NCBI GenBank assembly: GCA_002780895.1
Contig: PEUB01000098.1
Location: 1-33,438, forward strand
DNA: 33,438 nucleotides
Reading direction: 5' to 3'
DNA from: Nitrospirae bacterium CG02_land_8_20_14_3_00_41_53
GTDB lineage: Bacteria > Nitrospirota > Thermodesulfovibrionia > Thermodesulfovibrionales > SM23-35
Made by a program: the position numbers and the translations under genes. Under the pieces are notes generated by a model. The model ran no database searches, was not told the origin of the DNA, and worked only from the letters and a program-made list of their open reading frames with translations. Below are positions 291 to 32,964 of this stretch, in pieces (the first letter of the stretch is position 1; every line of letters begins with the position of its first letter).

Positions 291-849
291 TTATCACACT
301 AAACACAAGTTCTGCCTCTGATATTTTTTTATCATCAACAAATGCCTCTGCTGATACAAAGGCGCCATTTGGTAAAGATTTGACATTAACAACCTTTATC
401 TTTAACTGGTCTCCGGGAACAACGGGATGGAAAAACCGTGCCTTGACAGACCCTAAGAAATAGATCGGATTTTTGTTATCTCCTTTTTTTTCATCTGAAA
501 ATCCCCCCTCGCCCCCCTTTTCCAAAGTGGGGGGTAATGTGTTGGACCCCTTTTCCAAAGTGGGGGGTAATGGGGTGGCACCTTTTCCAAAGTGGGGTGC
601 CTGGGATTCGGAAGGATTATTTTCAGCGGCAAAAAGGACTATGGCAGTTTGTGCCATTGCTTCTAAGATTGCAACGCCAGGCATAATAGCCTTTTCAGGA
701 AAATGACCGAGAAATAATATGTCGTTGCCTGAGATATTTTTTATTGAAATTGCATAGTTATCTGGTTCAACTTCAAGTACTTTATCAATCATGATAAATG
801 GAAATCTCTGAGGGATTAGCTTCTTTATCTCTTCAAAATCAAGTTGCAT
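283..849 (-). CDS. FabZ-like 3-hydroxyacyl-ACP dehydratase carrying an in-frame repeat insertion
   Basis: This is a hot-dog-fold dehydratase of the FabZ type: LIPQRFPFIMIDKV at the N-terminus, the catalytic His in LGHFPEKAIMPG, the catalytic Glu in ILEAMAQTA, and the C-terminal strand ARFFHPVVPGDQL. I start it at the ATG at 847-849, which has a GGAGG ribosome binding site 4 bases upstream, rather than at the ATG at 870. That gives 188 residues, about 40 more than usual for FabZ. The excess is a Pro/Gly-rich stretch with PHFGKG and two PPTLEKG units, encoded by a triple palindrome at 501-602 and placed between the central helix and the next strand. The gene sits between two ketosynthases, so it probably dehydrates the beta-hydroxyacyl product of that local pathway. 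A housekeeping fabZ role is less likely in this context but not excluded. Confidence 0.88.
   Translation of the reverse strand: MQLDFEEIKKLIPQRFPFIMIDKVLEVEPDNYAISIKNISGNDILFLGHFPEKAIMPGVAILEAMAQTAIVLFAAENNPSESQAPHFGKGATPLPPTLEKGSNTLPPTLEKGGEGGFSDEKKGDNKNPIYFLGSVKARFFHPVVPGDQLKIKVVNVKSLPNGAFVSAEAFVDDKKISEAELVFSVINE
501..602. repeat. Triple array of the CCCC/GGGG palindromic element inside the FabZ-like gene
   Basis: Three tandem units share the core CCTTTTCCAAAGTGGGG, centred near 522, 557 and 589 and spaced about 32-35 bases. Each unit is a hairpin with arms of the type CCCCxxTTT/AAAGxGGGG. The array is read in frame by the dehydratase gene on the minus strand and contains no stop codon. 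The middle and right copies are shortened, which looks like local duplication after a first insertion. Confidence 0.9.
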
Positions 850-903
850 ATATCCTCCCTTCGTTAACATTTTTTGTTGTTTTCACCTGAAAATACCTTT
901 ATA

Positions 904-978
904 ACACACCCCCAACCCCTCTTAATAGAGGGGAGTTCTGCGGTTTCCCCTCTAAAAAGAGGGGATTAAGGGGTGTGT
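904..978. repeat. Nested palindromic element between FabZ-like and DUF559 genes
   Basis: Two short hairpins lie inside a larger inverted repeat. The outer arms are ACACACCCC (904-912) and GGGGTGTGT (970-978). The inner hairpins are CCCCTCT/AGAGGGG at 916-933 and CCCCTCT/AGAGGGG at 947-964. The same arms recur at 19631-19687. The element could form a cruciform or an RNA clover and may also stop transcription, but no T-run follows it. Confidence 0.85.
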
Positions 979-1067
979 ATTTTCATTCCCCTTTGTGCCG
1001 ACTTGTCAGCATGTGTGTTTCATTTTAAGTAGGCAGGATTCTCTCCCTTACAAGGGTCAATACCTTC

Positions 1068-1102
1068 TTAATCCCCTCCTTTACAAGGAGGGGTAGGGGA
1101 GG
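1068..1102. repeat. Palindromic element copy at the 3' end of the DUF559 ORF
   Basis: The hairpin has arms CCCCTCCTT and AAGGAGGGG at 1073-1093, followed by the TAGGGGAGG tail typical of the family. It supplies the stop codon and last codons of the DUF559 ORF. Confidence 0.85.
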
Positions 1103-1427
1103 TTATTTGTTTAATTTTTTCTGCTATCTTAATCAATACCCCTTCTAAATTTTCATATATCTCCCTATTGGTAAATCTCAAAAACCGGATACCAAAGGTT
1201 TCAATCTGAGATTGTCTCTGCATATCAGATAACCGCCCCTTATTCCCCTCCTTACCAAGGAGGGGATGGGGAGGTAGATAGTGAGAATCTCCGTCAACCT
1301 CTAAAGCTAATTTCAACTCAGGGCAATAAAAATCTATCACAAAATGCTCGACGCTATATTGTCTTCTGAATTTATAGCCCTCTAACTGCTTGCCCTTTAA
1401 TCTATTCCATAGGATGACCTCAGCCAA
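1068..1427 (-). CDS. DUF559 endonuclease-like protein (possibly degraded), built around repeats
   Basis: The ORF encodes a DUF559-type domain related to very-short-patch/PD-(D/E)XK nucleases: ILWNRLKGKQLEGYKFRRQ, then HFVIDFYCPELKLALEVDGD with the acidic active-site residues, then IRFLRFTNREIYENLEGVL. The start used here is a TTG at 1425-1427. Family-like sequence (FNRTNLTTKRKTLRRNLPL) continues in frame upstream to about 1493, but no ATG, GTG or TTG opens it, so the true start may be lost or may be an ATT. One palindrome copy (1241-1276) is inserted in frame as PPHPLLGKEGNKGR right after the LEVDGDSHY segment, and another forms the last residues (SPTPPCKGGD). No obvious ribosome binding site is present. 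The fold is convincing; whether it is expressed is doubtful. Confidence 0.6.
   Translation of the reverse strand: MAEVILWNRLKGKQLEGYKFRRQYSVEHFVIDFYCPELKLALEVDGDSHYLPPHPLLGKEGNKGRLSDMQRQSQIETFGIRFLRFTNREIYENLEGVLIKIAEKIKQITSPTPPCKGGD
1241..1276. repeat. Palindromic element copy inside the DUF559 ORF
   Basis: Arms CCCCTCCTT and AAGGAGGGG flank a three-base loop at 1245-1265, followed by ATGGGGAGGT. It is translated in frame as a Pro/Gly/Lys stretch. Confidence 0.85.
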
Positions 1428-1497
1428 GGGTAGATTCCTTCTTAATGTCTTCCTTTTCGTTGTAAGGTTTGTTCTGTTAAATGCTTTTGTAATTAAA

Positions 1498-1530
1498 AAC
1501 CCCTCCTACCTCCCCTTGTTAAGGGGAGGA
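1498..1530. repeat. Palindromic element copy upstream of the DUF559 ORF
   Basis: Arms CTCCCCTT (1510-1517) and AAGGGGAG (1521-1528) are preceded by CCCCTCCTACC. With the copies at 1068 and 1241 this brackets the DUF559 ORF on both sides. Confidence 0.8.
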
Positions 1531-1573
1531 TAATAAGATGACAATTTAAATAATCGTTTGTTTATTTTCAACA

Positions 1574-2857
1574 TCATGTATCATACCTGCTAAGAACAAT
1601 AGCTGTATTTTGTCCATAGGGGTCGGATGAGATTACAAGCACATGATTTATGTTCTTCTGTATCGCTTTATTCGGGACATAATCAAGGTCGCATTCAGGG
1701 TCTTTTTCAATATAATTTACAGTCGGTGGGATGAATCCATTCTTTATGGCACCAACTGCTGCTGCTAATGATAAGGAACCTGAGGCAGAAAAAGATTCTC
1801 CTACCATTGATTTTATTGAACTCACAAGGATATTAAAAGCATGCGCTCCAAATATTTCTTTTATAACTCGCGTCTCCATCCTGTCAAGTCCTTTTGTCGA
1901 ATTAGCGCTGGCAGATATAAAGCCTATATCCTCTGGAGAAAGAGGTGCATCTTTTAATGCAATGGTAATTGCATTTTTTAACCCTGTTCCTGCATGTTTG
2001 AATCCATCATCACTCCATTTGACCCCTCTGTATCCCCCCTTACCAAGGGGGGAATTAAAGGGGAGTGATGCGTCAAAGGAATTTCCATAACCTTTAACTG
2101 TGGCAAGTATTTCTGCGCCTCTTTTTAAAGCATGCTCTAAGTCTTCAAGAACAAGAACTGCTGCACCTTCTGAAAGGATTATCCCATTCCTTCTTGCATC
2201 AAAAGGACAAGAGATTGGCTCCGAACCATCTATCCCTGACAGATATCCAAGGTTATGAAAGCCGAGGAAAGTCTCTTCGCAAAGTTCTTCCACCCCTCCG
2301 GCAAGAACAACATCTGCTCTGTTTAAGCGTATAAAGTCAGAAGCATAAATGACTGCATCAAGACTGGCACAGAACCCTGTTGATATAGTTGTATTGAAGC
2401 CCTTTATCTTGAAACGAATTGAGACCTGACTTGCAGGAGAGTTAATGACTGTATTTGGAAAATACGACGGGTTTACATATTTTGGACCTTCGATAAGGCC
2501 TTCACGGTCGAACTGTGAAATACTGTGAAGGCTTCCGAATGTCGTTCCAATGGAAATACCTATGGAATTAGTGTTCTCGTCAGTGATCTGAAGATTGGCA
2601 TCATCAATAGCAAGCTTGGCAGCAGAGCTTAACAATCTTGTACTTCGGTCAAGGGTACGAAGTCCTTTTTTGCCGAGAAATGAAACAGGGTCAAAATCGC
2701 TTATCTCCCCAGCAATATGGACTTTAAAGGAGGCTGTATCAAATAGGCTTATTGTTCTAAATCCTGTTTTCCCCTGGGATAATGCTTCCCAAAAATCCTT
2801 CCTGCCAATACCAACAGGAGAGAGAACACCTATGCCTGTGATAACAACTCTATCCAT
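1574..2857 (-). CDS. Beta-ketoacyl synthase family protein with altered catalytic histidines
   Basis: This 427-residue thiolase-fold condensing enzyme starts MDRVVITGIGVLSPVGIG. The nucleophile position is kept (C163 in STGFCASLDAV). The two usual histidines are not: the HGTST-like motif reads SANST (about 317-321), and the KSxxGH motif reads KSMVGES (about 349-355), with Glu in place of His. Loss of these residues is expected to impair normal decarboxylative condensation. It may be a chain-length-factor-like partner of the other ketosynthase or use different chemistry. Residues about 267-282 (NSPLGKGGYRGVKW) come from an in-frame repeat at 2024-2068. The ATG follows the stop of the PilZ-methyltransferase by one base, so the two are probably co-translated. 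Confidence 0.85.
   Translation of the reverse strand: MDRVVITGIGVLSPVGIGRKDFWEALSQGKTGFRTISLFDTASFKVHIAGEISDFDPVSFLGKKGLRTLDRSTRLLSSAAKLAIDDANLQITDENTNSIGISIGTTFGSLHSISQFDREGLIEGPKYVNPSYFPNTVINSPASQVSIRFKIKGFNTTISTGFCASLDAVIYASDFIRLNRADVVLAGGVEELCEETFLGFHNLGYLSGIDGSEPISCPFDARRNGIILSEGAAVLVLEDLEHALKRGAEILATVKGYGNSFDASLPFNSPLGKGGYRGVKWSDDGFKHAGTGLKNAITIALKDAPLSPEDIGFISASANSTKGLDRMETRVIKEIFGAHAFNILVSSIKSMVGESFSASGSLSLAAAVGAIKNGFIPPTVNYIEKDPECDLDYVPNKAIQKNINHVLVISSDPYGQNTAIVLSRYDT
2024..2068. repeat. Palindromic element copy inside the ketosynthase gene
   Basis: Arms CCCCCCTT and AAGGGGGG form a hairpin at 2034-2052, followed by AATTAAAGGGGAG. The gene reads through it in frame on the minus strand, in the loop between GYGNSFDAS and the SDDG segment. 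Confidence 0.85.
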
Positions 2858-2858
2858 A

Positions 2859-4139
2859 CTACTTTGTTATTACATAGAAAACTATGATCCCCGTATCTTC
2901 GCGCATTTCTCTTATTGCAGAAAAAGGTATTTTAGCCTCAGAAAAGATACCCATGAAGTCTTCTTCATATCTCTGTAAGAAACCATCCCAGTCAACAATC
3001 CAGTGGTAATCCTGATGTCTGTACCGGCTTGCATCCTTAAAGGAAGTAATTAATATGCCGCCAGGGTTAAGCATGTTATATAAGGCTTTGAAAAATTTTG
3101 CGAGAAAATCAGATTGGAGATAGTCAAAGAATCCAACACTGTATATGATGTCCTGCCTTCCAAACTCACTCATGTTAAGATCGTGGTCAAACATCCTTAT
3201 GGCATTATATTTGCGAAGATTAACCTGATTTGATGAGAGTGGTGAAATACTGGTATAGGATAAACGATTTGCTGCGAAAGAAAGGGCATCATTATCTAAA
3301 TCAATACAAGTAATTTTAGCGCCGGATTTTTCAATTACAGTGGCTAATTCAAAAACCTCACGGCATGAACCACATGCGATATTCAAGACAGAAGGTTTCT
3401 CTCTATTCAGTAATTCATCTCTTAGTATGTCCTCAAGTTTCTTGATCCTATTCCTTACGGCGGGCGCAAGATCTGAATTCAAGAGACACAAATCCAAATA
3501 GTATCCTATCCCTTCAGAGAGAGGTGTGTTTTTGTACACATGTTCCAGCGTTTTATAATCACCCTGATATCCCTGAGGCCATGTTCTTGTGCGGTTTATA
3601 CAATAGCTTTTGGATAGAATGGTATTTGTTTTTCCATGAAACCTTATCCGTGCATCCCTGATAATATCCTTGTCTTTTACTTCTCTTTCAAATTCTGCAC
3701 AGGCATCGAGTACATCAGAAATAGCCATTGTAACATCATGTAAAAGTTTGTCAGGATTTGCCTCAGGATTAGAACATCTTTTCTCTATTTCCTCAAGTCG
3801 TTTATTGAATAGTTCTGTTACATCATCGAGATGCTTGACATGTTTTTCATCTAACTTAATCCCAACCCTGTAATCATTATCAAGCTGTATGCACCACCTT
3901 ACAAAACCAGCCTTATCTTCTATTCCATCATTGAACCACAGCATATGACCCGGAGCCAAAGGATAGTCTGTCTGTATGCCTATCCCTTTTTCAGATATAT
4001 CAATTGCCTTGCCTTTTAGATTCAACCATTTCTGTTCCCTGGATTCACGAGAGCTTACAGAGAAGTCGATGATTTTAGAATAGGGTCTTCTTTCAAACTG
4101 TCTTGTCACCCCATTTGGGTTAGGTGATAAATTCTGCAT
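2859..4139 (-). CDS. PilZ domain fused to a SAM methyltransferase of the acyl methyl ester (PhcB-like) type
   Basis: The N-terminal ~110 residues form a PilZ c-di-GMP-binding domain with both signature parts: the arginine motif RQFERR (13-18) and DISEKG (47-52). A linker follows, then INRTRTWPQGYQGDYKTLEHVY (about 181-202), ending in APAVRNR. This segment recalls proteins annotated as 3-hydroxypalmitic acid methyl ester biosynthesis enzymes. A class I SAM-binding core follows, with motif I VLNIACGSCREVF (251-263) and the acidic loop CIDLDNDAL (278-286). The ribosome binding site AGGAGG lies just upstream of the ATG. It heads the ketosynthase/dehydratase locus. I infer an S-adenosylmethionine-dependent methyl transfer controlled by c-di-GMP, with an acyl chain as a plausible acceptor. 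The domain calls are strong; the substrate is inference. Confidence 0.78.
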   Translation of the reverse strand: MQNLSPNPNGVTRQFERRPYSKIIDFSVSSRESREQKWLNLKGKAIDISEKGIGIQTDYPLAPGHMLWFNDGIEDKAGFVRWCIQLDNDYRVGIKLDEKHVKHLDDVTELFNKRLEEIEKRCSNPEANPDKLLHDVTMAISDVLDACAEFEREVKDKDIIRDARIRFHGKTNTILSKSYCINRTRTWPQGYQGDYKTLEHVYKNTPLSEGIGYYLDLCLLNSDLAPAVRNRIKKLEDILRDELLNREKPSVLNIACGSCREVFELATVIEKSGAKITCIDLDNDALSFAANRLSYTSISPLSSNQVNLRKYNAIRMFDHDLNMSEFGRQDIIYSVGFFDYLQSDFLAKFFKALYNMLNPGGILITSFKDASRYRHQDYHWIVDWDGFLQRYEEDFMGIFSEAKIPFSAIREMREDTGIIVFYVITK

Positions 4140-4199
4140 AGTATCCTCCTTTTTTAGTTAGATTGTTTTTTAATATGTTCTCAGTAACAGAACCACTAT

Positions 4200-4889: not shown

Positions 4890-4972
4890 TAATAGCCTGA
4901 GCCATATCTTGTTCTTAAATGGTGCTATTGCCTATCTCCTTGTCACACGAGTTATAGATATAGGTCACAGGT

Positions 4973-5746: not shown

Positions 5747-5814
5747 ATAAACCTCCTTATAGCTTATACAAAATACATTATGTATGCATCACGCATCGTG
5801 TATCTGACATCAAA

Positions 5815-7152
5815 TTACTGATATCTTTTAACCTTTACCTTCAGTCCTGATACAGTCTCTACTATTATATTTTCCCCCTTTCCTATAGGCTCATCAGAAT
5901 ATGCTGCCCAGCGCTCACCATGTAATAATACCATACCTCCATCTTTTGTTATATCTGTATCTGCAATCCCTTTAGCTCCGATAAGTCCCTCTGAACCGGT
6001 GACAGGCTTTCTCTTATATGCCTTGAATGCAAGGCCGAATGTTACAGTAAAGAATAGGGCGGTTATAATGACAGCAGGGAGAATAATATAGAGCGAGAGC
6101 TTCATAAAAGGCGCCGGTGATTCAAAGAGCATCAGTGAGCCTATAATCATAGCAATTATTCCGCCAATCGTGAGCACTCCATGAGATACAATCTTTACCT
6201 CAAGAACGAAGAGGATGATGGCGAGGATAATTAATAAAAGTCCTGCATAATTTACAGGAAGTGTCTGGAATGCATAGAAGGCAAGTATGAGACAGATTCC
6301 ACCTATTACACCGGGGAAAAGCGCCCCAGGGTTTGTAAGTTCAAAAAATAGGCCGTAAAAACCAAGGAGCATAAGGATATAGGCGATATTTGGGTCGGAA
6401 ATGAGGTTGAGTATCTTATGCCTGATCCCTATTTCCTCTCTGGTGACATTTGCTTTTGCAGTCATCAGGATCTTTTGTCCCGTAATCGTCCGGACCTTTC
6501 TGCTGTCTATATCTGAGAGAAGGCTGTTCAGGTCTTTGCTAACGAGGTCTATAACCTTTTCCTTTAACGCCTCTTTCTCTGTCGCAGAGATACTCTTCCT
6601 GACCGCATCTTCAGCCCACTTTGCGTTTCTCCCGTTTCTCTCTGCAAGAGATTTTATATAAGCTGCTGCATCGTTGGTCGCCTTTTCAGCCATCACCTTA
6701 TCCATCTTTTCCCCAATGCCAACTGGATGGGCTGCCCCGATATTTGTACCAGGTGCCATTGCTGCGATATGGGCAGCCAAGGTTATAAATACACCCGCAG
6801 AGGCTGCCCTGCTGCCGCTTGGCGAAACATACACAACAACAGGTACTTCACTCCCTATGATATCTTTGACAATATTTCTCATGGATGTGTCCAACCCTCC
6901 CGGGGTATCGAGCTCAATTATGAGTGCCTCGGCTTTCTTCTCATTCGCCTTCTTAATACTCTTTCCAATATATTCTGCTGAAACCGGATTAATAACACCA
7001 TCTACAGTGATGACAATAACTTCTTTCCTAATTTCTTCAGCAAATCCCCCCTGCCCCCCTTTACTAAAGGGGGGTGAGGGGGGATTATTTTCAGAGAAGG
7101 CAGAAAAGGAAAAGAGGATTAGAAAAATTAGAAATATAGTCTTAATAAACAT
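5815..7152 (-). CDS. nfeD: NfeD-family membrane-bound serine protease (ClpP class)
   Basis: A signal peptide (MFIKTIFLIFLILFSFSAFS) is followed by a ClpP-like protease domain, a multi-span membrane region (about 255-375) and a C-terminal OB-fold NfeD domain. The Ser-Lys dyad is visible: S118 in SGSRAASAGVF and K167 in AAAYIKSLAERN, with the LDTPGGLD oxyanion region at 81-88. Directly after the signal peptide, residues about 22-38 (NNPPSPPFSKGGQGGF) come from a palindromic repeat, so the mature protein would begin with it. The gene is upstream of and co-directional with its usual partner, the slipin. Length is normal for the long NfeD1b type apart from the insert. Confidence 0.93.
   Translation of the reverse strand: MFIKTIFLIFLILFSFSAFSENNPPSPPFSKGGQGGFAEEIRKEVIVITVDGVINPVSAEYIGKSIKKANEKKAEALIIELDTPGGLDTSMRNIVKDIIGSEVPVVVYVSPSGSRAASAGVFITLAAHIAAMAPGTNIGAAHPVGIGEKMDKVMAEKATNDAAAYIKSLAERNGRNAKWAEDAVRKSISATEKEALKEKVIDLVSKDLNSLLSDIDSRKVRTITGQKILMTAKANVTREEIGIRHKILNLISDPNIAYILMLLGFYGLFFELTNPGALFPGVIGGICLILAFYAFQTLPVNYAGLLLIILAIILFVLEVKIVSHGVLTIGGIIAMIIGSLMLFESPAPFMKLSLYIILPAVIITALFFTVTFGLAFKAYKRKPVTGSEGLIGAKGIADTDITKDGGMVLLHGERWAAYSDEPIGKGENIIVETVSGLKVKVKRYQ
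7044..7092. repeat. Palindromic element copy at the signal-peptide junction of NfeD
   Basis: The core hairpin at 7054-7074 has arms CCCCCCTTT and AAAGGGGGG around a three-base loop. Flanks ATCCCCCCTG and TGAGGGGGGAT extend the symmetry. The element is read in frame on the minus strand. Confidence 0.92.
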
Positions 7153-14275: not shown

Positions 14276-14301
14276 CCCCTCTTTTTAAAAGAGGGGATAG
14301 G
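14276..14301. repeat. Palindromic CCCC/GGGG element copy
   Basis: Arms CCCCTCTTTT and AAAAGAGGGG meet at a single T (14276-14296), then ATAGGG. It lies downstream of the formate-tetrahydrofolate ligase gene. Confidence 0.85.
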
Positions 14302-14343
14302 GAGATTTTGTGAATAACAAATACATAATACATAATTATAAAA

Positions 14344-14384
14344 TTCCCCCTCACCCCCCTTTGCTAAAGGGGGGATTTGAGAGG
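14344..14384. repeat. Palindromic CCCC/GGGG element copy just after fhs
   Basis: Arms CCCCCCTTT and AAAGGGGGG flank GCT at 14354-14374, with ATTCCCCCTCA upstream and ATTTGAGAGG downstream. It ends about 10 bases from the fhs stop and could form a hairpin in the mRNA, without a T-run. Confidence 0.9.
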
Positions 14385-16785: not shown

Positions 16786-19605
16786 TCATATCTGGTGTAT
16801 TGGTTCTATTTTAACTGCACATACCTTTAACTCCGGTATCCTTGCGATAGGGTCCAGAACAGAACTGGTAAGCACATTTGCTGCCGCCTCCTTGAAGTGG
16901 AAAGGTATGAAGGTCATACCTTTTAACGGCCGTTCCGAAATTAACACCTTGATATCTATAGAGCCTCTCCTGGAAGATACCTTCACTGTATCCCCATCAT
17001 TTACTCCCAATTGCTTTGCATCATCGGGATGGATCTCGATATATGCCTCGGGTGATACTTTATTGATTGCATCAATCTTTCTCGTCATTGACCCTGTATG
17101 ATACTGAAAAAGCTGTCTTCCTGTCGATAGCAAAAATGGATACTCATTATCAGGTAATTCCTCTGATGGTCTATATCTGATGGTGCTGAATGCAGCCTTA
17201 CCTCTTGGGAACCCTCCTTTAAAGAGATAAAGAGTTCCTGGATGGTCGAGTGTTGGACAAGGCCACTGAAGACCTATCTTTTCTATCCTTCCGTAAGTTA
17301 TACCTGCTATCGCCGGCCATGCCTTCCCAGCTTCATGAAATACCTCTCCAATATAGTTATATCTCATCTTGTACCCGAATAGGTTTGCAAGTTCCATGAT
17401 TATCCATGAATCCTCTTTTGCCTCCCCTGGTGGTTCTACTGCCTTTCTGACCCTTTGAATCCTTCTTGCAGTATTTGTGAATGTACCGTCTTTCTCTGCA
17501 AAGCAGGCTGCAGGCAATACCACATCAGCAAGCTCTGCCGTCTCCGTCATAAATATATCCTGTACAACAAGGAAATCCAGTTTTCCAAGTGCCTTTATTG
17601 TATGGTTAACATCAGGGTCGCTCAAAACAGGGTTTTCACCCATTATGTATGATGCCTTCAGTTTTCCCTTAAAGGCTGCATTGATTATTTCCGTTGCCGT
17701 TAAACCGACCTTGTCAGAGAGCTTGACACCCCATGCCATTTCAAACTTTTGCTTGATACCCGGTATATTTACCTTTTGATAACCGGGATAGAAGTCAGGT
17801 ATGCAACCCATATCTGTTGCACCCTGAACATTGTTCTGTCCCCTGAGAGGGTTGACCCCTGTACTTTCTCTTCCGAGATTACCTGTCATCAATGCCAAGT
17901 TTGCTATTGCATAGACATTTTCTGTTCCATGAGAATGCTGGGTAATACCCATGGTGTAATAAATACCAGGCCGTACAGCATTTCCATAAAGAAGCGCTAC
18001 CTTTATAATATCTTCCTTTGGAACACCTGTAATCCTTTCACCTTCCTCTGGTGTGTATTCGGCGAGGGATTGCTTGAAGGATTCAAAGCCTTCTGTCCGT
18101 TCCTCTATGAATTTTTTATCTATTAAATCTTCTTTTACAATTACATGCATAATAGAGTTTAGAAGGGCAACGTCTGTGCCTGGCCTGTGCTGCAGCCATA
18201 TCTTGGCAAATCTTACAAGTTCAATCCTTCTTGGGTCAGCAATAATAAGTTCAGCTCCATTTTTAACAGCCTTCTTCATTTTTAGACCGATTATCGGGTG
18301 TGTCTCTGTTGTATTTGAACCGATGACAAAGATTACATCATGATTTTCAATCTCCGGGACGGAATTTGTCATGGCACCTGAACCAAAAACTGATGCAAGT
18401 CCAGCAAATGTTGAGCTATGGCAGTACCTTACACAATTGTCAACATTATTTGTGCCAATGACAGCACGCATAAATTTCTGGAAGAGATAATTTTCCTCAT
18501 TTGTGCATCTTGCTGATGAAAGTCCGCCAATCGAGTCCGCGCCGTATCTTTCTTTTATTTCTCCTAATCTTTTTGCAACAAAGTTTAATGCCTCTTCCCA
18601 TGAAACCTCCCTGAATAGTGAGGAGTGAGGAGTGAGGAGTGAGGAGTCTACCCCCCCATTCCCCCCTCTTTCAAATCCCCCCTCGCCCCCCTTTGCTAAA
18701 GGGGGGGTGGGGGGATTATTAGGGGGATTTGTCCACTGTCCACTGTCCGCTGAATGTTTTTTGGGAGCTGTTCTGATAAGAGGCTTTGTGAGCCTTTCAT
18801 CGCTATTTATGAATCCGTAACCAAATCTACCTTTCATACAAAGCCAGCCTTCGTTTATCGTATCTTTTTTTGAGGAGACACGGATAATTTCGTTCCGCCT
18901 TACATGGAGTGTAAGGTTGCAGCCGCACCCGCAGTATGGGCAAACAGTATCAACTTGCTCTATGTCTTTCTGCCTTCCTTTATGAGCCCACATCTTACCT
19001 GTCAATGCTCCTGTAGGGCAGACCGCAACACACTGGCCGCAGAACTCGCAATTGAGATCTTTTTCATAGGAAGCACATACCCTTGTATTAAATCCCTTAT
19101 AAGCAAAGTCAATTGCACCTACACCCTGAATCTCGTCACATACCCGCACACATTGCCCGCAGAGTATGCATTTTTCCATACTCCTTTCAACGAATGGATT
19201 TTCGTCCTTTTTAATAAAAGGTCTTTTTTCGCCGACGAATCTGTTCTCCCTAATATTGTAGAAATATGCAAGTTCCTGGAGTGTGCAATCACCTGCCCTT
19301 TCACACACCATACAGTCATTTGGATGGTCAGATAGGAGAAGTTCAAGGATTGTTTTCCTTAATTTTTCTAAATAAGGGCTTGTTGTTGTGACTATCATCC
19401 CTTCTTTTGCTATAGTTGTACAGGCAGTAGCAGGTCTTGCCATGCCCTGAACTTCTACTATACATAGTCTGCAGCCTCCGAATGGCGAAAGTTCGGGATG
19501 GTGGCATAGTGTAGGTATCGGGATGTCAAGTTTTTTTGCAGCATCGAGAACGGTTGACAGCTTCCTTACAGTAACTTTCATGCCATCTATTTTGAGTGTT
19601 ACCAT
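16786..19605 (-). CDS. fdhA: NAD-linked formate dehydrogenase catalytic subunit (molybdo/tungsto-pterin, Cys type)
   Basis: This 939-residue subunit has a NuoG-like N-terminal cluster region: [2Fe-2S] ligands C34, C45, C48, C62, a His-Cys3 cluster (H94, C98, C101, C107), and two [4Fe-4S] sets (C146, C149, C152, C156 and C186, C189, C192, C196). The molybdopterin oxidoreductase part follows, with CPYCGCGC (222-229), C256, and the metal ligand C395 in CVRYCHSS, a Cys and not selenocysteine. The C-terminal molybdopterin dinucleotide-binding domain ends the chain. Residues about 284-331 are an insertion made of three repeat types at 18617-18752, at a domain junction. The partner NuoF- and NuoE-like genes are just upstream, so electrons pass to NAD+ or, if the complex bifurcates, to NAD+ and ferredoxin. 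Confidence 0.93.
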   Translation of the reverse strand: MVTLKIDGMKVTVRKLSTVLDAAKKLDIPIPTLCHHPELSPFGGCRLCIVEVQGMARPATACTTIAKEGMIVTTTSPYLEKLRKTILELLLSDHPNDCMVCERAGDCTLQELAYFYNIRENRFVGEKRPFIKKDENPFVERSMEKCILCGQCVRVCDEIQGVGAIDFAYKGFNTRVCASYEKDLNCEFCGQCVAVCPTGALTGKMWAHKGRQKDIEQVDTVCPYCGCGCNLTLHVRRNEIIRVSSKKDTINEGWLCMKGRFGYGFINSDERLTKPLIRTAPKKHSADSGQWTNPPNNPPTPPLAKGGEGGFERGGNGGVDSSLLTPHSSLFREVSWEEALNFVAKRLGEIKERYGADSIGGLSSARCTNEENYLFQKFMRAVIGTNNVDNCVRYCHSSTFAGLASVFGSGAMTNSVPEIENHDVIFVIGSNTTETHPIIGLKMKKAVKNGAELIIADPRRIELVRFAKIWLQHRPGTDVALLNSIMHVIVKEDLIDKKFIEERTEGFESFKQSLAEYTPEEGERITGVPKEDIIKVALLYGNAVRPGIYYTMGITQHSHGTENVYAIANLALMTGNLGRESTGVNPLRGQNNVQGATDMGCIPDFYPGYQKVNIPGIKQKFEMAWGVKLSDKVGLTATEIINAAFKGKLKASYIMGENPVLSDPDVNHTIKALGKLDFLVVQDIFMTETAELADVVLPAACFAEKDGTFTNTARRIQRVRKAVEPPGEAKEDSWIIMELANLFGYKMRYNYIGEVFHEAGKAWPAIAGITYGRIEKIGLQWPCPTLDHPGTLYLFKGGFPRGKAAFSTIRYRPSEELPDNEYPFLLSTGRQLFQYHTGSMTRKIDAINKVSPEAYIEIHPDDAKQLGVNDGDTVKVSSRRGSIDIKVLISERPLKGMTFIPFHFKEAAANVLTSSVLDPIARIPELKVCAVKIEPIHQI
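18617..18647. repeat. Short tandem repeat, 4.4 copies of AGTGAGG
   Basis: A perfect 7-base unit (AGTGAGG) is repeated four times plus AGT, inside the fdhA insertion. On the coding strand it gives SSLLTPHSSL. Seven-base units like this shift frame with every copy gained or lost. Confidence 0.95.
18652..18728. repeat. Palindromic CCCC/GGGG element copy inside fdhA, with a partial neighbour
   Basis: The core hairpin is CCCCCCTTT-GCT-AAAGGGGGG at 18686-18706. To its left, 18652-18671 holds C-rich remnants of another copy. To its right is GTGGGGGGATTATTAGGGGG. It is read in frame as NPPTPPLAKGGEGGF on the minus strand. Confidence 0.9.
18731..18748. repeat. Short tandem repeat GTCCACT inside fdhA
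   Basis: GTCCACT occurs 2.6 times in a row. It forms the upstream border (on the coding strand) of the fdhA insertion and encodes part of SADSGQWT. Confidence 0.85.
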
Positions 19606-19620
19606 TTCATGTCCATAAAA

Positions 19621-19728
19621 TCTCCCCTAACCCCTCTTTACCAAAGAGGGGAAGGACACACCCCTTAATCCCCTCTTAATAGAGGGGAATCTCCCCCTTT
19701 GGAAAAGGGGGATGAAGGGGGATTTTTT
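19621..19728. repeat. Array of three palindromic elements between fdhA and the NuoF-like gene
   Basis: Hairpins lie at 19631-19651 (arms CCCCTCTTT/AAAGAGGGG), 19670-19687 (CCCCTCT/AGAGGGG) and 19693-19711 (CCCCCTTT/AAAGGGGG), with GACACACCCCTTAATC between the first two, as in the 904-978 element. This fills the 145-base gap inside an operon, so it could act as an RNA stabilising or attenuating structure separating the dehydrogenase genes. Confidence 0.9.
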
Positions 19729-24977: not shown

Positions 24978-24993
24978 CTTAAGGAGAGATGAT

Positions 24994-26144: not shown

Positions 26145-26285
26145 ATGCAGCCATTTATATTCCAGACGTTTTTTATTATTTTATGGGGCATCCTTATTGT
26201 TTCTGGTGCTTCAGCTCAAGAATGTGTGGACTGCCATAAACAGATTATAAAGATATATAAAAGGAGACATGATGGATGCCATTAA
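26145..26285 (+). CDS. 46-residue exported peptide with one haem-binding CxxCH motif
   Basis: A strong AAGGAGG lies 6 bases before the ATG. The product is a signal peptide (MQPFIFQTFFIILWGILIVS to GASAQ) and a short tail, ECVDCHKQIIKIYKRRHDGC-H. CVDCH is a c-type haem site like the first motif of multihaem cytochromes, but the chain stops after 20 residues. It overlaps the start of the next gene by 17 bases. It may be a truncated cytochrome kept as a leader that couples translation to the rubrerythrin-like gene, or a genuine micro-cytochrome. Confidence 0.55.
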   Translation: MQPFIFQTFFIILWGILIVSGASAQECVDCHKQIIKIYKRRHDGCH

Positions 26286-26775: not shown

Positions 26776-26841
26776 TATAAAAGTTCTGGGTTAATTTTAA
26801 AATTATATTAACCTAAATGTTACAAAAAAGACAGGGCAGAT

Positions 26842-27027
26842 GTGCTAAAAAAACCCGTCAAAGCGAAAGGAATTTATTATGATATACATGACTGCAAATC
26901 TCACGGTAAGTGTGTTTTGGATAGAGGCTGGCTGACCATGCAAAAGGTCTCTAAGGAGTCGCTGGACGGCCTTTTTCAGCACATCTGCCCTGTCAATAAT
27001 AGTACTTTTATACAACTGGTGGGTTAA
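26842..27027 (+). CDS. Unrecognised 61-residue Cys-containing protein
   Basis: It starts with GTG after a CAGGG site. The sequence has three cysteines, DCKSHGKC and HICPV, in an arrangement that could bind a metal or a small Fe-S cluster, with basic residues at the N-terminus (LKKPVKAKG). It lies between two oxygen-defence genes on the same strand with short gaps. I do not recognise the family. Confidence 0.6.
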   Translation: MLKKPVKAKGIYYDIHDCKSHGKCVLDRGWLTMQKVSKESLDGLFQHICPVNNSTFIQLVG

Positions 27028-27064
27028 GTATCAATAAATCATTATTAGAAAAGGAGACTTAAAA

Positions 27065-28249: not shown

Positions 28250-30039
28250 ATTTTGCCTAATTTTCCGGCTAATTTTGTGGTTTCCTGTAATAAGGTTTCT
28301 ACTTCATTAAGTCCTTTGTTCCAGAAACTTCTGTCTGTTATATCCACGCCGAGTTTTTTGAAAATATTTTTTGGAGAATCTGATAATCCGGCTGATAAAA
28401 ACTCTTTAACCTTTTCTATAAATTTCGGCTTGTCTTTAACAGAATTCTGAAGTGACTTAGATATCAACAGACCGCTTGCATATGAATAAACATAGAAGAA
28501 GCTTCGGATATGGCTCCAATATACCCACCAATTTTTTGAGCCGGCAGACTGTTCAACGGAATCTCCCATATACGACGACATGTGTTTCTGGAAAAGTCTT
28601 CCTATTTCTTCCTTTGATAAATAACCTTTTTGTCTGAATTCCTGATGAAGTTCCTGTTCAAATTTATAGCAAGCTACCTGCCTGAAAATAGTTGAAACGT
28701 CATCATTCAGTTTCATCACCATGATGGAAAGCCCTAACTCATCGTCAGCCTGCTTGAGTATTTCTTGAAGCACAAAATCTTCCATAAAGGTACTCGCAAC
28801 CTCGGCTGTGGATGTCGGTGTCCCAAAATTCAGGGCATTCTGTTTTTCCTTGATCAGCTCATTATTTATTCCATGTCCCAGTTCATGGGCTAAGGTCAGG
28901 ACATCACGGAGTTTTTCAGTATGGTTCAAAAGAATATAGGTCGGCTGTGAAATAAGGTGATGAGCACAAAATGCACCGCTTACCTTTCCTTTTCTCGGGT
29001 AAACATCAAACTGGTTATTTCCCATAAATCCGGTAAGAATATCAGCAAACTCATTGTCAAGATTTTTAAAGGCTTTATGAATGAGTTTAATAGATTCATT
29101 ATAGGGAAATTTTTTATTGATATTCCCATATTCCACATTCCTTTCATGGTATTTCAATATTTTGACTCTCATAAGCCTGGCCTTTAACCCATAATACCTT
29201 GAAGGAATATCGAACCTGCCAGAAACTGTTTTTATAAGGGCATCTACAATTTCACTGTCTATATCATCACTTATGTGTCTCGTAAGGTCTGGCCTTGATA
29301 CCTTGCGGAGCTCGTCATCTACCTTTTTGTTTGTTAGTACAGAATTAATTTCCGTCTCAGCAACTTCAGCGTTTTTGTCTAATATATCGTTGAATGCCTT
29401 TGCTGCTGAATCTCTCACCTTCTTATTTTTACTGTTCATCAGGCTAAGTATTTCTGAAAAAGTCTTAACACCTTTGCTGCCATCCTCCAGTATAATCTTT
29501 CTTTCTTCCTTTGCCAGAAAACCAGACGTCATCTTTACCCAGTTAGAATAGGAAGTTGATGTCTTGAGGTTCAAAATCTTTTCTTCAGGTTCACTGAGTA
29601 AATATCTGGATCCTGCAAATATGCGCTCCAGAAGATGCTTATAATCTTTCAGTCCAATGTATTCAAGAAATTTTGTTTGATATCTTTTGAGGATATTGGC
29701 TATTCGAAGGTGAAAAAACTGGATGTCATTTTCTATCCTTTTGCTGAAACTTTCAATCTTATTGAAATTAGCTTTAAGATTTGGGTCATTCTGATCCTGC
29801 ATGGTTCTGAGCCAGAAATAATATCCTTCGTTTCCGTCAGTGCCACATTCTCTTTTCCATATTTCATATTCATCCAACGCTTGCTTGAGTATCGCAGGGT
29901 CTTTGAGATAATCTTTACGGTCTTTCCACTTATTAATAAAGATATAGCTTTTTTGTTCGACTATCTTTCTTTTTTCTTTTATTCCCGGATCATCATCACT
30001 TTCAAGAAGCTGTTTAAGATTCCATATAATCTGTTTCAT
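28246..30039 (-). CDS. pepF: M3-family metallopeptidase (oligoendopeptidase F type)
   Basis: The zinc motif HELGH (in TLAHELGHGINN) and the downstream Glu helix (STAEVASTFMEDFVLQ) identify an M3 peptidase. The long helical N-terminal half is typical of PepF. Length 597 is normal. No signal peptide is seen, so it should act on cytoplasmic oligopeptides. It is convergent with the flavodiiron gene and the stop codons overlap by four bases. GGAATTTGG precedes the ATG, a weak ribosome binding site. Confidence 0.93.
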   Translation of the reverse strand: MKQIIWNLKQLLESDDDPGIKEKRKIVEQKSYIFINKWKDRKDYLKDPAILKQALDEYEIWKRECGTDGNEGYYFWLRTMQDQNDPNLKANFNKIESFSKRIENDIQFFHLRIANILKRYQTKFLEYIGLKDYKHLLERIFAGSRYLLSEPEEKILNLKTSTSYSNWVKMTSGFLAKEERKIILEDGSKGVKTFSEILSLMNSKNKKVRDSAAKAFNDILDKNAEVAETEINSVLTNKKVDDELRKVSRPDLTRHISDDIDSEIVDALIKTVSGRFDIPSRYYGLKARLMRVKILKYHERNVEYGNINKKFPYNESIKLIHKAFKNLDNEFADILTGFMGNNQFDVYPRKGKVSGAFCAHHLISQPTYILLNHTEKLRDVLTLAHELGHGINNELIKEKQNALNFGTPTSTAEVASTFMEDFVLQEILKQADDELGLSIMVMKLNDDVSTIFRQVACYKFEQELHQEFRQKGYLSKEEIGRLFQKHMSSYMGDSVEQSAGSKNWWVYWSHIRSFFYVYSYASGLLISKSLQNSVKDKPKFIEKVKEFLSAGLSDSPKNIFKKLGVDITDRSFWNKGLNEVETLLQETTKLAGKLGKI

Positions 30040-30207
30040 CCAAATTCCTTTCTAATTCCTTATCCATATTTTAATTTATCTCTTTACTTGCAAATACTGT
30101 CAGGTAATTATAAATTATAAGCATGGCAAAAGGTAAGAAATATTATTTATGTTGTGGCGAGGATGTTCCTTACAATATAGTAGTACGGAACGAGAGAAGG
30201 GAAAATT

Positions 30208-30642
30208 ATGAAATACCAAATAGGGAATACCGGACGGCTTATTGTAGCAAGATTTGAAGATAGAGAGGATGCACTTAAAAACATTACTGATATTGCAAAA
30301 AAGGAGAATATAAGAAGCGCGGTATTTTATCTCATAGGAGGTCTCAGGCAGGGTAGGGTTGTTGTTGGACCGGAAAAGGAAGAGCTGCCTCCAAAACCTG
30401 TATGGAGGGAGATAAAAGAGAGCCATGAGGTTTTGGGCATAGGCACCATATTCTGGCAGGAAGATGAGCCTAAGATTCATTTCCACGGGGCATTTGGGAA
30501 AAAGGATATGATAAAGGTTGGCTGCCTCAGGGAAACCTCTGAGACATTCCTTGTTCTCGAGGCTGTTATTATGGAGATAGAAGGAATTGATGCCAGAAGA
30601 GAGTTTGATCAGGCATCAGGGTTAACTCTTTTAAAGTTATAG
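30208..30642 (+). CDS. DUF296/PPC-domain protein
   Basis: The 144 residues match the plant-and-prokaryote-conserved (PPC, DUF296) domain: RFEDREDALKNITDIA, ENIRSAVFYLIGGLRQG, then HFHGAFGKKDMIKVGCL with His residues in the usual trimer metal position, and LVLEAVIMEIEG. The GAGAAGGGAAAATT before the ATG is the ribosome binding site. Bacterial members are trimeric and often lack known function; some are called DNA-binding by analogy only. It is divergent from the peptidase gene and I see no functional link to neighbours. Confidence 0.88.
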   Translation: MKYQIGNTGRLIVARFEDREDALKNITDIAKKENIRSAVFYLIGGLRQGRVVVGPEKEELPPKPVWREIKESHEVLGIGTIFWQEDEPKIHFHGAFGKKDMIKVGCLRETSETFLVLEAVIMEIEGIDARREFDQASGLTLLKL

Positions 30643-30667
30643 AGGAATAGCTTTGATGAAAAGGAAT

Positions 30668-31309
30668 TTAATCTTTTGTCTTTTGCTTTAAGAGTTCTAC
30701 TACCTCCTCGTCGCTTACCTGAGAAAAATCCTGATAATAGTTGCCTATAGCCATAAACCCAAAAGGTGTCTCGGTGCAGACCCATTCATCAACCATCTGC
30801 TTAATTCCTTCTTCTGCATCTTCTGATGAAACAGGCAGGGCAGCAACAAGCCTGACTATTTTTTCCTTTTTCAGAGTGGATATAGCAGCCTTTATAGTTG
30901 CGCCGGTTGCAACACCATCATCAACCAGTATAATGATCTTTCCATCAAGGGGAGGGATACCTTTTCCGCTGCGATAAAGGGTTATCCTTCTTGAGATCTC
31001 CTTCTTTTGTCTTAAAATTTCCTCTTCAATATAATCCTTAGAAACCTTGTAGGCTGAAATGATATCTTCATTTAATACAACAGCACCTGTCTCTGAGACT
31101 GCACCTATGGCAAGCTCAGGCTGACCTGGAAAACCGATTTTTCTGATTATTATTATGTCGAGAGGACAATTCAATGCCTTTGCGACTTCATAACCAATAA
31201 CAACCCCTCCTCTCGGAAGGGCAAGCACAAGCACATCTTCTCTGTCTTTGTATTCTGTCAATCTCGAAACAAGCTGTATCCCAGCGTCTTTTCTATCTTT
31301 ATAAATCAT
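30668..31309 (-). CDS. Phosphoribosyltransferase-family protein
   Basis: The PRPP-binding loop is IILVDDGVATGATIKAAI (about 125-142). The N-terminal part has VLALPRGGVVIGYEVAKAL and DIIIIRKIGFPGQPELAIGAV, as in the large group of bacterial PRTase-like proteins sometimes fused to hydrolases. The base substrate is not evident. It is convergent with the DUF296 gene and its ATG lies just before a repeat-containing intergenic region. Confidence 0.88.
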   Translation of the reverse strand: MIYKDRKDAGIQLVSRLTEYKDREDVLVLALPRGGVVIGYEVAKALNCPLDIIIIRKIGFPGQPELAIGAVSETGAVVLNEDIISAYKVSKDYIEEEILRQKKEISRRITLYRSGKGIPPLDGKIIILVDDGVATGATIKAAISTLKKEKIVRLVAALPVSSEDAEEGIKQMVDEWVCTETPFGFMAIGNYYQDFSQVSDEEVVELLKQKTKD

Positions 31310-31540
31310 GTTTCTTGCCTCATCCTTCTCACTGTATCTGATTAAAGCATATCTAAAAATAATTTACTTTGCAACTCCCTGTCAGGGATGTCAATTAATA
31401 ATATGTGCAAGTTGTATAGACATGGTTCGACAAGCTCACCATGACAGTCACCCTGAGCCTGTCGAAGGGTCACGCCGGTGGGTACGCATGCCCTGTGTCC
31501 ATCTTTTTATGCACTCCTTAAGTTATAATTTTCATTGACT
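31310..31540. other. Divergent intergenic region with one palindromic repeat
   Basis: Between the phosphoribosyltransferase and the L,D-transpeptidase lies a palindrome at 31424-31469 and a TATAAT at 31524-31529, which is too close to the ATG to be an obvious promoter element for a standard leader. The open frame across it encodes VRQAHHDSHPEPVEG, a translation of the repeat, not a gene. Confidence 0.6.
31424..31469. repeat. Palindromic dispersed repeat, third family (TTCGACAAGCTCA type)
   Basis: TTCGACAAGCTCACCATGAC (from 31426) pairs with the later CCCTGAGCCTGTCGAA (ending near 31467). This repeat type is frequent as an intergenic palindrome in environmental bacteria. Confidence 0.85.
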
Positions 31541-32398
31541 ATGAAGAACTTTTTCGTGCTGTTCCTTTTATTTATTTTTATTCCATCAGTCTCTGTGGCT
31601 GATATGATTATAGGTGGAGAGACTGTTTATGTTGTAGAAAAAGGCGATGGTCTCGTACTTATCGGTGCAAAATTGGGAGTCAACTGGAGAAACATAGTGA
31701 AGGAAAACAATCTTGATATTAAAAAACAATGCAGGATTGGGCAGACACTCAGGGTGAACACAAGAAAGATAGTTCCAAAAATAATACAAGACGGTATAGT
31801 AATAAACATCCCTGACAGGATGCTTTATTTTTTTAAAGAAGGCCGGCTTAAGACATCTTTTTCTGTAGGTCTTGGTATGACAAAATGGAAAACTCCTACA
31901 GGAAAATTTAAGGTTATAGGAAAGGAAAAAAATCCAACATGGTATGTACCAAAATCCATTCAGATAGAGATGGAGAGAAAGGGCCAGCCTGTTAAAACGG
32001 TTGTCCCGCCAGGTCCTGACAACCCTCTTGGAAGATATACGGTAAAAATTTCAATACCCGGGATTCTGATCCACGAAACCATATGGCCAACCACTGTTTA
32101 TCAGTTCAGAAGCCACGGCTGTATCAGGGTTCTGCCTGAACATATTGAAAAGTTCTTTGAAGAGGTTGAAATAAACACTCCTGTGGAGATAATATATAGC
32201 CCTGTCAAGGCCGCAGTCTCGGAAGAAGGAAGAGTATTCCTTGAGGCTCACAAAGATGTCTACGGAAACTTGAAAGACCTGAATGCTGAAGCGAGAGGAC
32301 TGATAGAAAAAGCAGGAGTTGTAGATAGAGTAAACTGGCTTAAGGTAGATATAATTCTTAAAGAAAAATCAGGCATTGCGGAGGATATTACATTATGA
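31541..32398 (+). CDS. LysM L,D-transpeptidase (YkuD)
   Basis: A signal peptide (MKNFFVLFLLFIFIPSVSVA) is followed by a LysM domain (about 25-75, VYVVEKGDGLVLIGAKLGVN), then a YkuD catalytic domain with IPDRMLYFFKEGRL, KTPTGKFKVI, ILIHETIWPTT and the nucleophile motif SHGCIRV. It cross-links peptidoglycan or attaches proteins to it in the periplasm. The ATG at 31541 is preferred over a TTG two codons upstream. The stop overlaps the next start (ATGA), so the two cell-wall genes are coupled. Confidence 0.93.
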   Translation: MKNFFVLFLLFIFIPSVSVADMIIGGETVYVVEKGDGLVLIGAKLGVNWRNIVKENNLDIKKQCRIGQTLRVNTRKIVPKIIQDGIVINIPDRMLYFFKEGRLKTSFSVGLGMTKWKTPTGKFKVIGKEKNPTWYVPKSIQIEMERKGQPVKTVVPPGPDNPLGRYTVKISIPGILIHETIWPTTVYQFRSHGCIRVLPEHIEKFFEEVEINTPVEIIYSPVKAAVSEEGRVFLEAHKDVYGNLKDLNAEARGLIEKAGVVDRVNWLKVDIILKEKSGIAEDITL

Positions 32399-32964
32399 TT
32401 TCAAGAAGGAATTTTTTAAAGGCCCTGATAGCCGGGACAGCATTTTATTCGTTTAGAAATGCTTTTGCATCAATAAGTAATCCCCCCTCACCCCACTTTA
32501 GCAAAGCGGGGAAGGGGGGATTTGAAGGTGAAAGAATACTCAAAATGTACAATATCCATACAGGCGAGAGCCTGAATATAAAGTATTATTCGTCAGGCAT
32601 CTACGACCGTGATGCCATTGATAATATAAACTATTTTTTAAGGTGTCATTATACTAATGAAGTAAAAGCCATGGATATAGGGGTTTTAGACCTGCTCTGC
32701 AATATAAAAGACATTGCAGGTAAAGATAGAGAAGTGCAAATAATATCAGGCTATCGCTCGCTCGCTTATAACGAATTTCTGATTAGTCAGGGTAGAAATG
32801 TCAGTAGAAACACTCTTCACCTGCAAGGACTTGCTATTGACTTCTCAATAGAAGGGGTCAGCAATAAAGGGCTTTCCCGTATAGCAAAATCATTTTCAGC
32901 AGGCGGGGTAGGGAAATATCCTGAATTTGTGCATATAGATGTCGGCCGCGTAAGATACTGGTAA
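32395..32964 (+). CDS. Tat-exported DUF882/M15-type peptidoglycan peptidase with repeat insert
   Basis: A twin-arginine signal (SRRNFLKALIAGTAFYSF) is followed by a DUF882 (MepK-like M15) domain: MYNIHTGESLNIKYY, VQIISGYRSLAYNEFL, the metal ligands in TLHLQGLAIDF (His and Asp) and FVHIDVG (His). Residues 29-44 (NPPSPHFSKAGKGGFE) come from a palindromic repeat inserted right after the signal peptide. Total length 189 includes that insert. It overlaps the L,D-transpeptidase by four bases and likely cleaves the 3-3 or 4-3 cross-links its partner makes. Confidence 0.9.
   Translation: MISRRNFLKALIAGTAFYSFRNAFASISNPPSPHFSKAGKGGFEGERILKMYNIHTGESLNIKYYSSGIYDRDAIDNINYFLRCHYTNEVKAMDIGVLDLLCNIKDIAGKDREVQIISGYRSLAYNEFLISQGRNVSRNTLHLQGLAIDFSIEGVSNKGLSRIAKSFSAGGVGKYPEFVHIDVGRVRYW
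32481..32522. repeat. Palindromic CCCC/GGGG element copy at the signal-peptide junction of the M15-type gene
   Basis: Arms CCCCACTTT and AAAGCGGGG (one mismatch) lie at 32491-32511, with TCCCCCCTCA before and AAGGGGGGATTTG after. It is read in frame on the plus strand, giving the same peptide pattern as in NfeD. Confidence 0.9.

Follow-up and report, generated by a model that had tools for sequence, protein, structure and literature searches.

Introduction

In the REP/RAYT system, short palindromes occur singly or in pairs and a partner gene is flanked by them. The G/C-rich intrastrand triplex motif (TM) of E. coli was shown to form a triplex in vitro, and its sites were found by Holder et al. 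(2015) to be more variable; passages of the same report describe no mobility-providing activities near the motif and cite earlier work in which neither promoter nor terminator activity was found (PMC4666352). The words DUF559 and endonuclease are absent from the main text of that paper. Here we analyze contig PEUB01000098.1, the full 33,438-nucleotide (nt) stretch of which is referred to as the window, together with its 2.0-Mb source genome (the own genome). The window contains copies of a hairpin accompanied by a G-rich tag that mirrors the purine arm of the stem, and two of these copies bracket a gene of the nuclease family DUF559.

A preliminary description of the window had seen in these palindromes an element inserted in frame into at least six genes. 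That observation is real, but we interpret it differently: the palindromes found in frame arise as by-products of a family of triplex hairpins tied to DUF559 across many phyla. The earlier reading missed the fit of the repeat to the triplex motif, and the DUF559 gene, which it counted among the host genes, is probably the partner gene of the element. We propose, with a probability of about two in three, that a DUF559 gene lying between inverted copies of its own triplex hairpin forms a mobile cassette, and that hairpins standing singly or in pairs are non-autonomous derivatives, which it serves in trans.

Results

Most standalone DUF559 genes examined are bracketed by triplex hairpins

The DUF559 gene of the window lies between two hairpins whose tags match the purine arm of the stem perfectly under the third-strand rule given below:

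1068-1427, minus strand: DUF559 (PF04480) nuclease gene, probable cognate gene of the flanking hairpins (Pfam E 2.6e-22; domain match 1113-1466)
1073-1104, no strand: triplex motif 3' of DUF559 (hairpin 1073-1093 plus tag GGGGAGGTT; stem 9, third-strand match 1.0)
1498-1529, no strand: triplex motif 5' of DUF559 (hairpin 1509-1529, tag on its left; stem 9, third-strand match 1.0)

Motifs of other types surround the three remaining strong DUF559 genes in the own genome (the right hairpin at one of these genes is imperfect and was seen by eye), and a fifth match, weak and Vsr-type, has no motif. For the own genome and its relatives, 33 of 55 listed DUF559 matches were given loci and hairpins with a stem of at least 7 were counted. 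Hairpins were present on both sides of 15 of the 26 standalone genes, on one side of nine and on neither side of two (L030, at a contig end, and L033), while none was seen at the seven matches that were long open reading frames (ORFs), Vsr-type or fragments. It should be noted that the hairpin finder keeps the longest stem, and that some visible flanking hairpins (L016, L018) were consequently scored as missing in this count.

The association extends to named species, where an alignment of five relatives gave 561 matches, of which we kept the best 80. Three had flanks that were too short; among the 77 evaluable loci, a hairpin with a stem of at least 8 was found within 150 nt on both sides in 60, on one side in 10 and on neither side in 7, the figure of 60/77 being possibly high for the DUF559 family since the seed alignment consisted of hairpin-bearing relatives. 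At the same loci, random intervals were bracketed in 32/11,375 cases and other ORFs in 4/244. The hairpins lie close to the matched domain (median distance 46.5 nt on the left and 32 nt on the right), and the two-sided loci include Pseudomonadota, Nitrospira, Chloroflexi, Rokuibacteriota, Omnitrophota, Nitrospinota, Gastranaerophilales and Aminicenantes. No report tying DUF559 to these repeats was found in the open PMC literature, subscription papers being outside this scope, and a PADLOC scan gave weak partial matches only.

Individual loci depart from the simple arrangement. At a DUF559 gene of N. gonorrhoeae (L218), two hairpins with G-rich tags lie on the same side of the domain, about 170 and 285 nt from its end. 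In four loci (L018, L055, L056 and L057), hairpins are located inside DUF559 at about the same point, after a conserved DF[Y/N]C motif, and the insertion terminates the reading frame in L055 and L056. In E. coli K-12, the 3' end of ycjD, also a DUF559 gene (L166:6213-6761), carries a degenerate hairpin, and about 150-200 nt further downstream lies an E. coli triplex motif that is intact, whereas no hairpin is present upstream. The locus has the look of a cassette that has decayed or been domesticated, and no clean empty site was seen among the strain variants viewed. On Sinorhizobium pSymB (L191), a hairpin-containing repeat of about 114 nt, which may be the RIME1 element of Sinorhizobium, stands in inverted orientation on either side of DUF559 (1843-1956 and 2419-2532).

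Hairpins match within a locus and, in the window's order, track the nuclease lineage

Left and right hairpins of the same locus are alike. Over the 60 two-sided loci, the similarity of left and right hairpins was 0.75 vs. 0.61 expected, with a maximum of 0.648 in 5,000 permutations. The gene-facing tags fit their own stems better than tags swapped between loci (0.772 vs. 0.709, maximum 0.733 of 300), with a fit of 0.54 on the outward side; in a minority of loci, such as the ispE cassette described below, the tags face outward. In the window's order, the nearest DUF559 gene of another genome had closer hairpins than paralogues of the same genome in 18/20 cases (means 0.84 vs. 0.65, respectively), and hairpin type correlated with nuclease lineage over 24 loci (Mantel r 0.34, 0/5,000 permutations as high). 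In this order, hairpin type tracks the lineage of the nuclease, not the host.

Similar hairpins are also dispersed. We counted a generic form, CCCTCTCCCN2-6GGGAGAGGG, in 26 genomes of the named loci, any copies at the loci themselves included. All 18 genomes with a two-sided bracket held between 2 and 230 copies, and the reversed control gave 0 in all 26. The genome of a one-sided locus (L136) held 42 copies, and the seven bracket-free genomes held 17 (L160), 199 (L112), 0 (L115), 0 (L119), 1 (L154), 2 (L158) and 13 (L101). The copies in this last group indicate that dispersed hairpins do not require a bracketed DUF559 gene in the same genome.

The repeat fits the architecture of the triplex motif

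Within the window, the word CCCCNCTTT is present 18 times vs. 1.63 expected. A simple rule (stem of at least 8, at most one mismatch, pyrimidine-rich 5' arm) finds 15 hairpins, in agreement with the roughly fifteen palindromes counted in the preliminary description, vs. 0, 1, 0, 0 and 0 in five mononucleotide-shuffled windows. Collected across the own genome, the commonest core, CCCCNCTTTNNNAAAGNGGGG, occurs 131 times with at most one mismatch, while its reversed control is absent, in line with the earlier idea of a dispersed palindromic element. A sample of 21 stretches of the own genome (367,039 bases; 20 picked for holding copies, plus the window) yielded 97 hairpins, 61 of them within ORFs of at least 100 amino acids (aa), some of which hold three.

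The tag beside the stem mirrors the purine arm, as in AAAGGGGGG followed by TGA and GGGGGGATT. With a third-strand rule that places G over G and A or T over A, and a required match of at least 85%, a mirror tag was found on at least one side of 90/97 own-genome hairpins (6.8 expected with shuffled flanks) and on both sides of 51/97; in the window, 13/15 hairpins had one. As judged from sequence, the repeat fits the G/C-rich intrastrand triplex architecture outlined in passages of PMC4666352.

Cassettes within host genes

DUF559 was contained in 23 ORFs of at least 250 aa. Ten of these, picked as likely host genes, were searched with Pfam and seven of the ten also with NCBIfam; some of the remaining long ORFs may be chance open frames in GC-rich genomes. 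A host domain was present outside DUF559 in all ten, including PriA, ValS, HsdS, IspE and DNA methylases, with PriA and ValS matched on either side of DUF559; N-terminal fusions to RimM and MeaB are also among the ten. Cassettes are in frame in the ispE, priA, hsdS, valS and methylase genes. No splicing (Hint) domain, as expected of an intein, was found among the Pfam matches of the ten host proteins.

Two of these genes could be compared with insertion-free relatives. For ispE, the clearest case, 11 of 21 matched genomes were aligned. The cassette is in frame in four species, giving ORFs of 423-480 aa, and a fifth species has a diverged cassette at the same place; five others are without it, and one retains a shortened in-frame footprint that keeps one tag. 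Measured from the same anchors, the filled alleles span 543 nt and the shortest empty ones 93 nt, a difference of 450 nt. The priA cassette is flanked at either side by a pair of hairpins and separates two conserved portions of the protein; it is missing in 6/6 aligned relatives, a subset of those matched. Comparison of these alleles gives good support to the view that the cassette moves.

DUF559 is predicted to have an EDxHD/Vsr-like fold

In a 30-sequence alignment, residues E12, D41, E52, D54, H58 and D65 are kept, E12, D41, H58 and D65 being invariant. The predicted fold of another family member (mean predicted local distance difference test score 85.5) matched best to 3hrl (E 8e-10), the solved structure of a DUF559 relative from N. 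gonorrhoeae (NGO0050), followed by the catalytic domain of I-Bth0305I (3r3p; E 2e-4, TM-score 0.75 by query); Vsr came ninth (E 0.07), behind some mitoribosomal proteins. A sequence profile gave the same first two, with an E of 0.00098 for I-Bth0305I. Enterotoxin matches in the profile search, with E 0.056 or worse, were taken as chance. The model points to an EDxHD/Vsr-like catalytic fold with conserved E, D, H and D residues. A DUF559 gene has already been assigned to the EDxHD family in part of an earlier report (PMC9403480), and passages on Caulobacter VsrA, a DUF559 protein, interpret it as a mismatch-repair nuclease (PMC12907096), suggesting that standalone DUF559 genes may include domesticated members.

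In-frame copies within genes

Six genes of the window contain a copy of the repeat, remain open through it and match known families (FabZ-like, DUF559, ketosynthase, NfeD, fdhA and M15-type):

499-602, no strand: in-frame triplex motif of the FabZ-like gene 283-870 (minus strand), at 512-532, together with two degenerate tandem copies; direct repeat family D6
1244-1276, no strand: triplex motif in frame inside DUF559 (stem 10, tag 1.0; peptide YLPPHPLLGKEGNKGR)
2024-2068, no strand: hairpin 2033-2053 in frame in the ketosynthase gene 1574-2857 (minus strand); tag match only 0.78
7043-7086, no strand: in-frame triplex motif with two tags (both 1.0), following the signal peptide of NfeD (gene 5815-7152, minus strand)
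18663-18717, no strand: triplex motif (hairpin 18686-18706, both tags 1.0) and, next to it, a partial copy; in frame in fdhA 16786-19605 (minus strand)
32479-32523, no strand: in-frame triplex motif (32491-32511; tags 0.889) of the M15-type gene 32395-32964 (plus strand)

Homologues without the peptide confirm the insertions claimed earlier for FabZ, the ketosynthase and FdhA, by means of solved structures, and for NfeD, by means of orthologues. The FabZ-like insert corresponds to residues 88-131, where solved FabZ (8ayd) goes directly from 77 to 80; 9s5h_C is gapped by 10 and 7 residues at the ketosynthase segment; and the FdhA insert occupies residues 280-329, where 9wxb_B runs from 316 to 321. 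NfeD has 17 extra residues exactly at the repeat, missing in 7/7 aligned orthologues. For the M15-type gene the claim is borne out by three of four aligned orthologues, in which the segment is missing, the fourth having an unrelated segment, while the internal copy of DUF559 is called an insertion only by eye, against the family alignment.

The commonest peptides encoded by in-ORF hairpins of the own-genome sample are PPxPPFxKGG, PPxPPLxKGG and PSLTLPPRGGGQGW. The first arm base of the 61 in-ORF hairpins falls in codon phases 0, 1 and 2 in 27, 14 and 20 cases, respectively, and the strand-copies without a stop number 98, 70 and 123 in the same phases, each of 194 (chi-square 3.4, 2 degrees of freedom, p about 0.19). 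The preliminary description had supposed that a single frame and orientation is seen each time, as if the element were tuned to be tolerated as a linker. This part does not survive: all three phases are used, about as stop avoidance allows, and orientation means little for a palindrome. Since phase use roughly follows the number of stop-free copies in each phase, and C/G runs give Pro/Gly in every frame, no special tuning is needed. What stands is that the element inserts into genes and is retained where the frame survives. ORFs make up 85.5% of the sampled bases but hold just 61/97 hairpins, fewer than their share, as expected if most in-gene insertions are lost.

A gene adjoining one of the DUF559 genes of the own genome (L016:1152-2357, contig C146) has an in-frame hairpin peptide, NNPPLDKGGNGG, and by eye a CARF/CRISPR-associated look.

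Other hairpins, repeats and rearrangements

The remaining features of the window related to the triplex hairpin are intergenic or paired:

904-978, no strand: hairpin pair (916-933 and 946-965), tags outward, REPIN-like (tags 0.875 and 0.889)
14276-14307, no strand: intergenic triplex motif (tag 0.889)
14342-14374, no strand: intergenic triplex motif (tag 0.889)
19619-19727, no strand: three intergenic hairpins (19631-19651, 19667-19690 and 19692-19712; best tags 1.0, 0.6 and 1.0)

A 30-nt inverted repeat between ORFs at 26830-26994 (90% complementary, arms 105 nt apart) is unrelated to them.

DUF559 was found in 45 plasmid records, and the cassette region is common to all seven Azospirillum records that cover the locus. 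In G036, the genome of a relative, three near-identical decayed DUF559 cassettes (L046, L049 and L050) are contained in a larger unit with inverted ends of about 25 nt (GGTTC[A/T]TC...), flanked in 2/3 copies by an 8-bp target duplication seen by eye. The larger unit is presumably a miniature inverted-repeat transposable element (MITE) of the ISL3 type that carries the cassette, and indicates that an ordinary transposon-like unit can transport cassettes as well. Inverted blocks separate contig C31 of G075 from L219 of the close species G050; some of the breaks lie near triplex hairpins and another at other repeats, which agrees, by coordinates alone, with the published link to rearrangement.

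Observations that weigh against the cassette as the source of dispersed hairpins

A number of results speak against the proposal that DUF559 cassettes move and give rise to the dispersed hairpins. By our rule, 7/77 named loci have no hairpin, including the valS case (L101), and all five seed relatives carry one on at least one side, which may raise the share of two-sided loci. There is no constant target duplication at the cassettes (3.03 vs. 2.83 expected, about 2 standard deviations, maximum 3.19 of 3,000 permutations) or at lone copies (within about 1.2 standard deviations of the null). Over 20 kb compared between two close Gastranaerophilales species, there was no hairpin-bearing insertion or deletion of at least 20 nt, and in a third species the hairpin-bearing stretches are replaced, not cleanly empty; these comparisons yielded no clean empty site of a lone hairpin at the DNA level. 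The Mantel correlation is weak in the named set (r 0.14, 10/2,000 permutations as high), where one hairpin type dominates.

The distribution across genomes adds to these points. The Serratia genome L112 has no bracket and nevertheless 199 generic copies, and some hairpin-rich genomes have no DUF559 gene (G016, 73% complete, with 35 hairpins, and G029 with 20). The own genome itself is without a DUF559 gene of its commonest hairpin type, while the DUF559 genes L028, L029 and L041 of its relatives carry that type or a close one; the commonest hairpins of the own genome may thus be orphans, or their DUF559 gene may fall in an assembly gap. Over 41 genomes, hairpin number correlates with DUF559 (Spearman 0.64) and equally with Y1 transposases (0.68), so we do not use the former correlation as proof. 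Lastly, we know of no strand-transfer activity for PD-(D/E)XK-type enzymes.

On these scores we reject target-site duplication as a general feature of the kind seen at both ends of a classical insertion sequence (IS) or MITE. In NfeD alone, a CTGAA direct repeat surrounds the 51-nt insert, possibly by chance. The outer 40 nt of the two cassette sides share inverted matches that are longer than expected (6.3 vs. 5.1, maximum 5.6), which we read as the second hairpins of pairs, as in priA, rather than as classical terminal repeats.

Discussion

A model for the spread of the cassette and its hairpins

That DUF559 drives the spread of the lone hairpins is, on grounds of association, the most likely reading of these data. 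We infer both its role as the cause of movement and a copy-in route. The EDxHD/Vsr-type nuclease would recognise its cognate hairpin when this is exposed as single-stranded or cruciform DNA, and would cut at the donor or at the target. Host repair could then copy the hairpin or the whole cassette in, perhaps helped by short C/G-tract homology and leaving no fixed target duplication. Insertions in genes would survive only if they add a whole number of codons and introduce no stop, conditions that would often be met because C/G runs read as Pro/Gly in any frame. The outcome would be Pro/Gly/Lys linkers and, occasionally, a whole nuclease domain embedded in a host protein.

Alternative explanations

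The alternative that fares best, which we nonetheless consider unlikely, is that DUF559 is a homing endonuclease that targets a pre-existing triplex hairpin, its gene being copied into the hairpin while hairpins spread otherwise. The nearest solved relative outside DUF559 is indeed a homing endonuclease domain, the family assignment in PMC9403480 points the same way as far as that account goes, and hairpins exist without DUF559. If the hairpins were merely pre-existing targets, however, insertion-free ispE and priA relatives should show one at the site, and they show none; moreover, the tracking of nuclease lineage by hairpin type means that hairpins must spread or change with the nuclease.

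It is very improbable that the hairpins arise from DNA-structure instability alone, through triplex-induced breaks and slippage, with DUF559 as a repair nuclease that is nearby by chance. Bracketing, left-right matching and co-lineage would all be left unexplained, even though the higher variability of E. coli motif sites noted in passages of PMC4666352, the interpretation of VsrA in parts of PMC12907096 and the location of some inverted-block breaks of a close relative near hairpins are in keeping with this reading. About as little credit can be given to the view that the hairpins act as a cassette for regulating or terminating a DUF559 gene of defence or repair, as opposed to transposition ends. 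Their position near the gene ends would suit such a function, but similar hairpins are dispersed in genomes and within coding regions, cassettes are found within host ORFs, and the earlier work cited in passages of PMC4666352 found no promoter or terminator activity. Least probable of all is mobilisation by Y1 (RAYT/IS200-like) transposases, as for REP elements, for although Y1_Tnp genes are present in 33/41 genomes and their number correlates with that of the hairpins, no hairpin of this type lies within 150 nt of any of 20 Y1_Tnp ORFs picked from the list of the window's order, leading us to reject Y1 as the flanked gene, and G039 has 25 hairpins with zero Y1_Tnp matches.

A candidate class of mobile element

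Returning to the mobile cassette, we consider it probable, on balance, that an EDxHD/Vsr-type nuclease gene bounded by triplex hairpins represents an unrecognised class of bacterial mobile element, present in many phyla, which would be the source of orphan palindromes of the TM/PIT/boxC type and an in-frame invader of essential genes, where it would persist as a linker or an embedded nuclease domain. A partner gene would make the origin of the palindromes testable by a single knock-out. If correct, the proposal would assign a role to DUF559, whose function is listed as unknown in Pfam, and would illustrate how in nature a gene lacking a splicing domain can come to lie in frame in essential genes.

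Comparison with known systems

The arrangement resembles REP/REPIN-RAYT in its short palindromes, their occurrence in pairs and the flanked partner gene. It differs in its enzyme, a nuclease of the EDxHD/Vsr type instead of a Y1 HUH transposase, and in the window no GTAG/CGTC foot tag of REP was seen by eye, the tags being G-rich mirrors such as GGGGGGATT, GGGGAGGTT and GGGGTGTG. If REP/RAYT is taken as the kind, the cassette would be a variant of it with an unrelated enzyme. The Sinorhizobium repeat presumed to be RIME1 is alike in being a hairpin-containing repeat of about 114 nt inverted around DUF559. Rickettsia palindromic elements are likewise palindromic repeats read in frame in proteins; they differ in sequence, and a partner nuclease is proposed here. 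To our knowledge, no kind of mobile element pairs an EDxHD/Vsr-type nuclease fold with triplex-hairpin ends.

With the EDxHD homing endonuclease I-Bth0305I, DUF559 shares the predicted fold, the conserved E, D, H and D residues and an apparently mobile gene. It differs from EDxHD homing endonucleases in that no intron or intein was seen and in having triplex hairpins as bounds, and from I-Bth0305I in being a single domain of about 110 aa, without the extended DNA-binding regions described in part of PMC3943268. The hairpins themselves are comparable to TM/PIT/boxC, with which, according to passages of PMC4666352, they have in common a G/C-rich stem, a second loop of 3 nt, a mirror third strand, many copies and inverted pairs. 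The E. coli motif is described there as always intergenic and without a mobility gene, whereas the hairpins reported here are also found in frame within genes and are tied to DUF559.

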